This document shows positions 25,401 through 34,400 of a stretch of DNA of 64,000 nucleotides, piece by piece (the stretch's first letter is position 1; every line of letters begins with the position of its first letter). This DNA is from Watersipora subatra (taxonomy: Eukaryota; Bryozoa; Gymnolaemata; Cheilostomatida; Watersiporidae), in NCBI RefSeq assembly GCF_963576615.1, contig NC_088717.1, forward strand, positions 14,390,108-14,454,107, in the 5' to 3' direction. The position numbers and the translations under genes are program-made. The notes under the pieces were generated by a model that saw nothing but the letters and a program-made list of their open reading frames with translations, made no database searches and was not told where the DNA came from.

Positions 25401-28400
25401 ATTACTATTATTATTACAATATTAATATTATTATAATGTTACATCATCGTCTTTGACATAATGACTGACAACTGTAATTTGTATCTTACTAAGCTGTGTA
25501 TGTTTTTGTATTTCATCTTGATCATATCCATTTCCTACTATCTGCGCTGATTGTCACTCTAGTAGCTGTTTGTGTTTACATGTCCATTCGACCAGCTTTT
25601 ACTCATCTCTAACAGGTTACGTGTTTGTTTGTTATTCTCACTTTAATATGAAAGGTTGTGTTTGTTGTTAGTTCCTTCAGACATCCCAGATCTGTCCAAC
25701 CCCAACAGAAAGAAGGCTCAGCTTATCGGCACCACCAGTACAAGTGATGCTGCCTCAGAATCTATTGGCCCTTCATTACCTACAGATGATGATGCGTTAC
25801 ATGACTCTCGCATGGAGTAAGTCAATGTTTTATTTGATTGTATACAATGAACAGCTCACGGCTTGGTGTTTGTTAGGCATTTTCTTTTGGAAATTGTTCA
25901 TGTAGTGAGCAGACCCCCTATCTAACATATGATTTAGGTATGGCTGCTTAGCCTGGAGTTTCGAGGTAGGATTGCGGAAATTTGATACTACTCAGGCAAA
26001 AATATGTTTTATGTGACTAGCGCGGTTACAGGGTTTTCATTGACTATAAATTGCGCACCTGATGTTGATAAGTGGTTAGTTGTCTCTAGGATTCTTCACC
26101 CAAGCTATTTCAGTACAGTATGTGAGATACTAGGAAACTTTCGAGCAAATTTTTGCTTTGAAATACGCGACAAGTTTAAGATACAAGCATGGGAGACAGC
26201 TCTCAATGCAGCGGCTAAGTGGCCGAGTGTACAAGAGGCCGCTTACGAGAACTGCATCGCTTGGTCTTTCTCATCTAGCAGTTTCAAGGATGGGAATGGA
26301 TTACTTGGTATTTAGTTATTTTATATAGGACAATTTAATTTGAGATATTAGTGAAAACATACGAGCTCGGTCCCGTTAAACTCGAATCTCAAGGTGTTTT
26401 CTCTAGACTAAAAATTATTGGCTGCGGCTGTAGGCTGGTGGCCAAATCTAGGAATTGTGAGTCTAGTCTGAACTTGCTGTGATCTTGGATGAACCCCTGG
26501 CTTATCATCTAACTCTGTCAGTAAATCATGTCTTGAGGTTTAAAATTGAGGTTTAGTTAGGCTTTCTAATTTTTACTCTTCGCCTTCCAACAATAGGTAC
26601 ATCAAAGGTAACATGATAATTCGTTTCTTGAAACATGACATATATATATATATATTAGTTTTATGGCAATAATTTAATATCAAATAGAAATGGTTTTTTC
26701 AAATTATGCCATATAACGATAGTAAAATAAATTTAAAAAGTAGCTTCCGGAAAAAAAGGAAAGGAGACATGGAGCTCCCGGCCTATATTTTTTCAAGCAA
26801 TATTGAAATAAGTAAAAGTAATACATAAACTAAAGGAAGGCAATTGTTTTGGGTACATTCACCTGCTAGACTCATTTATTAGACTACATTTTCAGACACA
26901 CTATGGCAGCGCTTCCTTATTCATTTTAATTGCTGAACCCCCTACGACTGATGGGGCAATCTCACACCCCTTGGTTTGAATAAAGCAAAAGAAAGGCTCA
27001 CAACATAATGAAAAACAAACATATTCGGAATATCCTAAAACAGTATGTTATTGGAAGGTTATTATAAGAAAAGTCTAATGTTTTCACACAGCAGCAACAT
27101 ATAAAAGACCTGCTGATAGGTTGTGACTAGTTATGGCAAAAAATATTAACTTGAATTTTTGTGTGATTGCAAATACACTTTCATCATAATCGCTATTGAT
27201 TCTTGCACCCCATTACCCCCTCACAAACAACAGCTTGCATCCCTTAGATGTGTGAGCACCCCTGTTTGGGAAGCCCTGCACTATGGGTATCTTTTGTATT
27301 AATTGTTGTTTCACCAGGGGGGGGGGGAATTCAGTAGAGCACAACTGCAATATGTAGACTCTTTGATGGATATAAGCTTTGATGGATATAAGCTTTGATC
27401 ATGGAAGGGGACCTCAATATGCTATCAAGATGTTTGTTAGGCTTCCTCTATCGGTGACTTGTATCAACTTCCATTGTTGTGGAAGAAGACTAGTAATACA
27501 TCTGTCATGCTGCAAGATTCTGGTAAAGTATTTGCAGCTAAAAAGCTAAAGGATAAGGAAGGTCCTCGTTTATGTGCAGACTACTAAGATAGCAACAAGG
27601 CCTGAAATCTGTAGATTAGTGCATATGCGGTGAGATGCTGAGCTAGATCCGGCTCTGAGAATAGATTGAACATAGATGCGCAAATGACTTCGGTGTATGC
27701 ATAGAGCTAAAACTGGAGGTGAGCTCAGTCTGACAGGTGCAGGAAAGTGTTAAAATTAAAAGATATGTTTTAATCCAATTATTAGCAAATCTCCGGTTGT
27801 TTTGATGTGAGAGAATTGTTTAGATATTTTAGACTTGCTGAGAGAGTCCTCACATCTGTTGTAGCTGTTGTTTAGCCAGTTTGCTGGCTTTGTCTTTTTG
27901 GGGTGCGTTATGATGCTACCAGGCTGCAGATTCAATTCTATTGAACATAGCAGGCGTCTACATACTTACAGATCAAATCAACTCTTCTCTTGGGTTTGAT
28001 AAATGTGGTTTACTTTTCGCTTGTCTAATCCTCTTTCATTTACTCTAGACGTTTTGGTCTGCACTAAATTACAGTTTAGAGAAAAACCGGCATATTGGAA
28101 TTATTTGTGTATATCTTTAATGATAAATTGATATTGTTCTTATTCAACTAAGAACCGGCAAAAGATTGTTATCAGCACTTCTTCTTGACTGTCACAACAT
28201 TAGTCAAGCATTGCACATCTTCTCTTCCCTTTCAAACTTTATTTTGGTCTCCGTATAAATATGAAACAAATATCCATTTGTCTCAAATGTTCTTGTGAAG
28301 CTTATTATATGGAATGAGTTGCTCTGGTTAGTCTATCACTTTGACAACTTTTACATTACATAAATAGCACACAGCAGTTCACACTCGCTATAGACCACTA

Positions 28401-31400: not shown

Positions 31401-34400
31401 TTGGGATGTGATTGATGGAAGTGTGGTGAGCTGGAATACGTGATCAATAATACACAAGTCATAGTATAGATCTCTATACTATGCTTTTGATGCAAATCTA
31501 ATTCTAATATGAAAAAGAACGATGTAATTCAAATTAATCCAGTACGTTTGTACTACCTCTGACATTTTTGACATAAAAGTTCTAATGTTGGATGCATGAG
31601 AGTATACATACGTGTATGGCATTTTACTACCGAGTGCGCATCGCCTTGGCAACAGCTGTATATTTATCTCATTGTTCTGAGATGTCTCCACGCACTCCCA
31701 GTACCAGCAAAGATTATCTTTGTCAGCGAGAAATTTTACGCTGCCATCATAGCAGATGTCCACTACAACAATATTGAATGTGACCATATTGCTTAGTGGT
31801 TACCAAAAACACATGAAATGACTCATTCAGACTTCATGCATTGTTTGTATGAGGCTATTTATAATATTTGCTATAAAACAATATAAAATAATTAAAAATA
31901 AATTATAAAAGAGAATTTTAAAGGTTCTCTGAAATTCCTCAAATGTGGCCTTTAGAATGATAAATTTAAATGTGGTGCTCTATACCTCCTGAAATGTGGC
32001 CTTTACAATAGTAAATTTAAATGTTGTGCAATCGAAGTACAGCTTCATCTGACAAAACCATGGGTGTAACTAGTTGGCGAGGCTGGCTGCATTTGAGTTT
32101 CAACTGACAGGTTTCCTCCCAGTTCTTGTTTTAGTTACAAATGCCAATTGATATTGCATATAAATTAGCTATAGACTCGGGCCAGCCCATATGCGTGCGT
32201 ATGGTCTGTATTCATGCCAACCTGTGGTGTCATCCAGCGGTCCTGAAGGGGCGAACTTGGGTCTTCTCATTACACGGGCATTCACCGCCGCTAGCACTGA
32301 ACAAACCACTAGTAATACCTTCATTTCTCTGGCTACCTGAAAGTGTTATCAACTTTATCCGTCTTAATCTCATCTCTATGTAAAACAGGTTATGGTACAC
32401 ACGATATGAACAGTTCTCCAGAGAGTTGAATTATGTTATACCAGTTTAGTAGCCATGCTAAGGTAAGTGTCTTGAGTCATTGAAATATTACGTATTTGAG
32501 GTGATATTTTTAAATTTGCATAAGCTGAGACAAAACATAAACACTGAAAATTAACTAAGAAAATTAAATTACAACTGGAAATTAAATTAAATTTATTAAC
32601 TAAGGTAAACTATGGTACAGTTGGAAGTAAATGCCGTTTCTCATTATACGCTTTTAAATGAATAATGTGGTAGGTGGTAGGCCTATGGTTTAGTAAGGAG
32701 GCTACGTGCTAACCAAGTAAATGCTTTTTAGTGTTTCGTATACCATCCCTGGTCTACACAGAATTATATCAACTTTATAACTTTACGAACAAAATTGTTG
32801 GAAGTCTTACAGCTTTTTCATGTGAATAATAAAGCGGTGTTATTCTGTTAAGACACTTTAATAATGTTATATTATTGAAAGTATTGTCTGCTGTGAAAAC
32901 ACTGTTATTGACTTATCTGCCATCACTCAAATTCAATGATTGGTTTCACAAAATTTGACTTCATCCAAATTTGTTAATAAATAGTATAGAGGTTTTGGGT
33001 TTCTTACGCTTTGCTACTAACAACAAGGAATTATATAATTGGGGAAGATAGTATTAACTGCTGTCGGCAGTAGACTCACACTTATCTTCTGACAGAGATG
33101 TGCCTAAACTTGAAATTATGTCATTACAATTATGAAATACCAATGGGTATTATAATCTCCATTTAAACGTCAAACCACAGTTAGTATCTTTAAATTTGTT
33201 CCTTGTGAGAAAGCAGAAGAATAAAATGCCTTTTCATTCAGAGATTTAGAAAAGCAGGTGACGGTTTGGAATTCATTTGATGTCTTCTTCTGTTTTATGA
33301 TTGAAAATGTCTAAAAAGGTATTTGGATGTAGAATTTTCCGTCAAATCACTGTCACGTTTTCCTCATAATCTAAAACATTAAAAAAAATTTGGTAATCTA
33401 TTTGGCGGGATTCTTTTTTCAATGTATGTTTAATGCAATAATGATACTTACCTCTTCAGAATGGTGTTGCGCGTCCCTATCGAGTCTCCTGCCACACTGA
33501 GCTCTTTCTGTCACCCGCAGACCTTATAACTAAGTTCACATTGGTCGCTTTAGCTCACATCCGCGGCAACATTAACGCATGCGTGACGTGATGGCCGCCT
33601 AGGTGGAGCTTTCTACCCACCCAAAAATCATTAATCAGCATTCCAGTCTTCTGTCTCATCTCTGCTTCTTCTGACAGCTCTCTGCCTATCAATCAGATCT
33701 GAGCAGACGTTTTTCCTTCATTCGTGTGCCTGCGGTTTTTATTATTCCTCTGATAATTATCAATATTCCACTCGGTGTGAAGTAACTGGCCTTGGTCGTT
33801 TTCATTTCATCGTCTAAAGTATAACTGTTGTCTGGGGGTTTATTGTTGGGACATCTATCCGCTTAGCTGAGAAGTTGTTTGGATTTAAAGTAATCTTAGT
33901 GTTTACAGTTTTAGTCGGCGTGCAGACGCTTGCAGTGAAACAATGTCGAGGTTTCATTCAAAATTGTCACAGATGGCATAAGAGAATATTAATAAAGCTC
34001 CAAGTAAAAAACAAAGGTCGATGACAACCTGTCTGTTTGCACCCAAAACTACTTACAGTGGTGCGTGAAATAAACTGGAACCTTTTGTTGGAAAACTAAA
34101 ATTCTCACCTATAACATTGTTGCTTCAATAACATTGTTGTTTAGTCAATAACCATAAATTGTATTTTAATTTTATCTTTATTTTGTCAGGATTTCAAATA
34201 TATGTAAACCAAACAGCTGTAAAATTATGTTTGTGAATGATTACGTAGGTTAAATTCTGAACATTTCACTTACTAATACTTGAAGACAACAATCTGTACA
34301 GATATGATCACATGACATACATTCTTAGTTGCTTATTTCAAGTTATATACATGCATATGACTTCAAATAAGCGAATACAACAGTTATATTCAACACGCTC

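Follow-up and report, generated by a model that had tools for sequence, protein, structure and literature searches.

A probable protein-coding gene nested antisense within an NKAP intron of the bryozoan Watersipora subatra

The nesting of one gene, in antisense orientation, inside an intron of another is a known genomic arrangement (PMC3192792, PMC4394429). Nested genes make up ~10% of Drosophila genes and ~1% of human genes, with two thirds of them antisense (PMC4394429), and a figure of ~63% antisense is given for human nested genes (PMC3192792). In the closest described cases—OMG, EVI2A and EVI2B in NF1, and 2mit in Drosophila tim2—a complete gene on the opposite strand likewise occupies an intron of an unrelated host (PMC4394429, PMC3786989). 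Here, we describe a comparable locus in a 64,000-nucleotide stretch of the Watersipora subatra genome (contig NC_088717.1, positions 14,390,108 to 14,454,107 of the forward strand; hereafter, the window). An intact, multi-exon protein-coding gene very probably lies antisense inside the intron at 25817-35955 of a single-copy NKAP gene. This locus differs from the NF1 and tim2 examples in its host and in its product. A thin survey of the literature brought up PMC4584094, which does not treat such a case, and no description of an NKAP gene with a nested intronic gene; the case presented here adds a member to the known arrangement.

The evidence for the nested gene starts with its exon structure. 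All six introns proposed for the minus-strand interval 33544-28388 follow the GT-AG rule (first/last bases 33451/32337, 32221/31763, 31611/30602, 30507/30090, 29923/29540 and 29407/29029), and the joined exons yield a single open frame of 428 codons plus a stop. The coding part, 1287 nt from the ATG at 32324 to the end at 28388, is spread over six exons (Table 1). When we drew six GT sites at random from the same stretch, 1 of 20000 draws reached the total that the six donors score against the donor consensus—a comparison of GT sites rather than of whole gene models, and one in which the tested sites had been picked by eye beforehand. A preliminary description of this DNA had proposed these six junctions with consistent phases, together with an AATAAA signal, and both were borne out; the transcript should extend to about that signal. 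The same description spoke of six exons, a count that stands for the coding exons, whereas the proposed untranslated first exon makes seven.

Judged by its own sequence features, the host is a real, single-copy NKAP gene. Seven plus-strand exons, from 22504-22553 to 45675-45710, form one frame with GT-AG introns, and the two exons that flank the nested gene join in frame across it, with one codon split between 25816 and 35956, so that the antisense placement in a ~10-kb NKAP intron, also put forward earlier, is upheld. In the genome as a whole, the Nkap_C domain (PF06047) matched two exons, both in the window (77.7 and 61.9 bits, against a cut-off of 25), with no other match at E up to 0.001. 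Additionally, a block farther 5', near 19990-20080, resembles the N-terminal region of human NKAP and may be joined to these exons. The nested gene, spanning 28238-33544 on the opposite strand, falls wholly within the intron and keeps a distance of 2.4 kb from each neighboring NKAP exon.

The predicted protein of 428 residues opens with a hydrophobic, signal-peptide-like N-terminus (judged by eye, without a predictor). This leader is followed by 26 Cys grouped 6+6+8+6—six at residues 38-106, six at 120-153, eight at 172-213 and six at 218-253—and by a Pro/Thr tail of 14-residue repeats (26% Thr, 22% Pro, 6% Ser). Four N-glycosylation sequons are present, and no membrane-spanning stretch was seen by eye. 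The protein as a whole gives an EGF Pfam match of 35.9 bits, with EGF modules 2 (exon 6) and 3 (exon 7) each exceeding the PF00008 cut-off (Table 1). In module 1 (exon 5), all EGF-type Pfam matches stay below their cut-offs (18.0 versus 27 and 14.5 versus 22.1 bits), and the six-Cys domain matched none of the Pfam families at E up to 10. The architecture of signal peptide, six-Cys region, three EGF modules and Pro/Thr tail given in the preliminary description can be recognized in its features, but its first EGF module fails the Pfam thresholds.

A profile built from four family members matched 22 PDB sequences at E up to 0.001, with Notch in first place; all of them are known as proteins with EGF modules. 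Notch1 (5uk5, E 2.9e-17) and PVFP-5, a mussel foot protein (7qab, E 1.3e-6), resemble the nested-gene product where its EGF modules 2 and 3 lie. The likeness is confined to that part: residues 168-260 contain the best-matched stretches, nothing matches the six-Cys domain, and the query excluded the Pro/Thr tail. We also considered CBM14 (peritrophin-A), a domain with six Cys in a broadly similar order, as an identity for the six-Cys domain. The order of the Cys makes it plausible, but no Pfam match was found at E up to 10, nor did the two C7 relatives described below give any Pfam match of CBM14 type. In a profile comparison with 10 CBM14 domains from this genome, the hhalign probability was 1.8% and the score was surpassed by 2 of 60 Cys-preserving shuffles; this identity is not supported.

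The nested gene is a member of a small family encoding Cys-rich/EGF proteins that would be secreted, with copies on C7 and C5 of the same assembly. The first 269 residues, searched against the whole assembly (784 Mb, 239 contigs), gave 40 hits at E up to 0.01, of which 6 are the window's own exons. Exon-by-exon matches identified related genes at C7:16.65 Mb, C7:60.76 Mb and C5:39.8 Mb. The remaining matches, as far as inspected, are EGF matches and were not counted as family; neither was C5:27.48 Mb, with an EGF-like match alone. Spliced alignment, in which some splice sites are weak, produced models for five other copies or part-copies: three at C7:16.65 Mb (two nearly identical ones with a signal-peptide-like start and a third for which no exon ahead of NPC was found), a fourth C7 copy at C7:60.76 Mb and one further copy on C5. 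Since separate exons of the nested gene match these relatives, the exons are confirmed independently of the splice signals. A reciprocal search with a C7 copy gave 14 matches at E up to 0.001, and 3 of these are window exons, out of the six that are coding.

In an alignment of four members, the window protein is 40-41% identical to the others, with most of the Cys columns fully conserved; Cys58, Cys76, Cys94 and Cys106, with the motifs PR.C and NPC, and the C.C.C of module 1 are kept in all four. The models of the C7 copies end after module 2 and that of the C5 copy after module 3—the Pro/Thr tail is found in the window copy only—and the two C7 proteins tested gave no EGF Pfam match over the cut-off. 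Two intron positions are shared, both in phase 1: the intron that parts modules 1 and 2 falls inside the Cys172 codon, as it does in the two C7 copies inspected, and the one ahead of module 3 interrupts Phe216, as in the C5 copy. With six introns, two of them at split codons common to its relatives, a processed retrocopy is ruled out.

From these features, we infer how such a gene and its product would behave. Transcription would proceed from a promoter of its own, with processing independent of NKAP, and the protein would leave the cell via its signal peptide. Its EGF-like and Cys-rich portions would serve as binding modules locked by disulphide bonds, the Thr/Pro repeats would be O-glycosylated and form an extended tail, and the types of domain present suggest a role in the extracellular matrix or a mucus-like layer. 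The nesting itself is most likely without function. As for its origin, the copy could have reached the NKAP intron with its introns, by duplication at the DNA level or by transposition; alternatively, a rearrangement could have brought the NKAP intron to enclose the gene. Because intron positions are common to the relatives, duplication with introns is the simplest reading. No host gene was seen around the C7 and C5 relatives, where open reading frames (ORFs) of at least 75 residues were read by eye, an inspection that does not amount to a test.

Compared as DNA with the C7 and C5 regions, the host intron gave two matches, both to C5: the longer covers 255 columns at 71% (E 5e-29), the shorter 40 bases at 82.5% (E 4.7e-4). 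The longer one pairs a 243-bp piece of nested-gene intron 3 (31099-31341) with the C5 region L021:2989-3239, near a related gene, and may be a dispersed repeat or a trace of duplication.

A number of observations weigh against an intact gene of this kind. The first concerns the tail repeats, in which 5 of 19 distinct changes are synonymous as compared with 32 of 126 possible ones (6 or 7 of 19 in the other five frames), a count that covers the first 10 of 11 repeat units. No clear synonymous excess, and no purifying selection, is visible in them; the tail seems free to vary, and its repeats give no help in showing coding use. Secondly, the relatives do not agree in every respect: the C5 copy is not among the 14 matches of the C7 query at E up to 0.001, and its model is without counterparts of Cys38 and Cys53, where the tblastn match crosses a stop. 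The introns of the six-Cys region lie inside Thr85 (phase 2) and before Glu117 (phase 0), as opposed to a single phase-1 intron in the C7 copies. Thirdly, the alignment with human NKAP put three short plus-strand segments into the host intron; these were discarded as spurious because the NKAP frame is continuous without them.

The last of these observations relates to the promoter. CCAAT at 33544 and TATAA at 33528-33524 on the minus strand stand merely 16 nt apart, and CCAAT occurs 5-120 nt upstream of TATAA in 203 of 5000 random 200-nt windows (both motifs are present in 371 of 5000). The proposal of an own TATA/CCAAT promoter is weak because a pair of this frequency comes close to chance: both motifs exist, but they do little to single out a promoter, which is nonetheless possible. 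If the TATAA is real, transcription would begin near 33500, within the proposed exon 1, and the true start of that exon is probably located there.

The weak promoter motifs and the tail without visible selection, along with one C7 sister copy that is apparently truncated, could also be accommodated by a decaying or silent pseudogene that still looks intact, the relatives on C7 and C5 performing its function. We regard this as improbable, given 428 codons without a stop or frameshift, GT-AG boundaries in 6 of 6 introns, and 26 Cys that remain in even groups despite 40-41% identity to the aligned relatives. Over a long survival free of constraint, some part of the frame, the introns or the Cys pattern would have been broken.

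To much the same low degree, we entertain a coupling between the two genes, an idea already raised in the preliminary description, whereby nested-gene transcription would lower NKAP expression, or vice versa, in certain tissues. The opposite orientation and the position entirely within one long intron would suit such a scheme, and interference by nested genes has been published (PMC3192792). No sequence feature singles the coupling out, however, and the 2.4 kb on either side separate the gene from the NKAP exons. A shade less probable again is the bolder proposition of an undescribed secreted family, with a new six-Cys fold and an atypical EGF module; there, the Pro/Thr tail would have been gained solely by the NKAP-intron copy, whose transcription would be coupled to NKAP output. 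That assembly or the picking of splice sites created a spurious gene model is very hard to credit, for although the splice sites were originally chosen by eye, relatives elsewhere match exon by exon and have two introns that split the same codons, the window contains no N bases, and the host exons are in frame on both sides.

An intact gene nested in NKAP, the reading that we prefer, would be one more clear instance of an antisense nested gene, here with several exons and with family members in the same genome—copies that could help to time the nesting and to test its effect on the host. The locus also points to a small secreted Cys-rich/EGF family, which is mildly new in that its N-terminal domain has no Pfam match; neither outcome alone alters current understanding.

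Table 1. Coordinates in the window of the NKAP exons, the host intron and the parts of the proposed nested gene.
Feature	Position	Strand	Basis
Upstream NKAP exons, Lys/Ser-rich	22504-22553, 23228-23402, 24082-24155	+	one ORF with GT-AG introns
NKAP exon preceding the intron	25672-25816	+	open frame joined with neighbors
NKAP intron holding the nested gene, 10,139 bp	25817-35955	+	GTAAGT donor after 25816, TTTTACAG acceptor before 35956; flanks in frame; no N
NKAP exon following the intron, first half of Nkap_C	35956-36083	+	PF06047 62.3 bits, E 4.9e-17; NKAP chain 7w5b_3 E 1.5e-12
Next NKAP exon, second half of Nkap_C	42928-43076	+	PF06047 77.7 bits; in frame
Last NKAP exon, ending at stop TAA	45675-45710	+	in frame
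Nested gene, proposed untranslated exon 1 with promoter motifs	33452-33544	-	GTAAGT donor; CCAAT 33544 and TATAA 33528, weak
Exon 2: start codon 32324, signal-peptide-like stretch	32222-32336	-	spliced frame
Exon 3: first four Cys of six-Cys domain	31612-31762	-	C7 relatives E 6.9e-11, 7.6e-11 (matches extend into exon 4)
Exon 4: remainder of six-Cys domain (NPC...C)	30508-30601	-	spliced frame; family alignment
Exon 5: atypical EGF-like module 1 (CWCDC)	29924-30089	-	C7 relatives E 3.0e-10, 1.7e-8; Pfam EGF below cut-off
Exon 6: EGF-like module 2, eight Cys	29408-29539	-	PF00008 30.7 bits, cut-off 21.5
Exon 7: EGF module 3, Pro/Thr repeat tail, stop	28388-29028	-	PF00008 24.9 bits, cut-off 21.5; ORF
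42-bp tandem array, 10.1 copies, coding 14-residue Pro/Thr repeats	28451-28876	-	repeat scan and translation
AATAAA polyadenylation signal, ~145 nt beyond the stop	28238-28243	-	sequence motif

Near the C7 cluster of relatives, at C7:16.634-16.646 Mb, long coiled-coil coding exons that are putatively CCDC57-like lie between putatively TTC23-like exons on the same strand. This is perhaps another nested gene; two of the CCDC57-like ORFs gave no Pfam match. Genome searches for two marker proteins gave nothing for COX1 and 2 matches for C1q.

Elsewhere in the window, no Rfam family reached its gathering score between 17000 and 48000, and ARAGORN found no tRNA in the window. The next NKAP intron carries a 25-bp tandem array of 28.4 copies (36554-37263). 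An ORF at 17753-18583 on the minus strand, with a weak zf-RVT match (22.5 bits, cut-off 27.5), is probably a retrotransposon remnant. Long overlapping ORFs at 7583-8609 on the plus strand represent one simple repeat read in three frames, for which a tandem repeat is likelier than a gene. Long adjoining ORFs at 14953-16472 on the minus strand, of which 14953-15510 and 15777-16469 had no Pfam match at E up to 0.01, may be a gene or a mobile-element protein. Finally, a Cys-rich ORF is located at 13833-14174 on the minus strand, and it resembles a CXC/tesmin-type domain.

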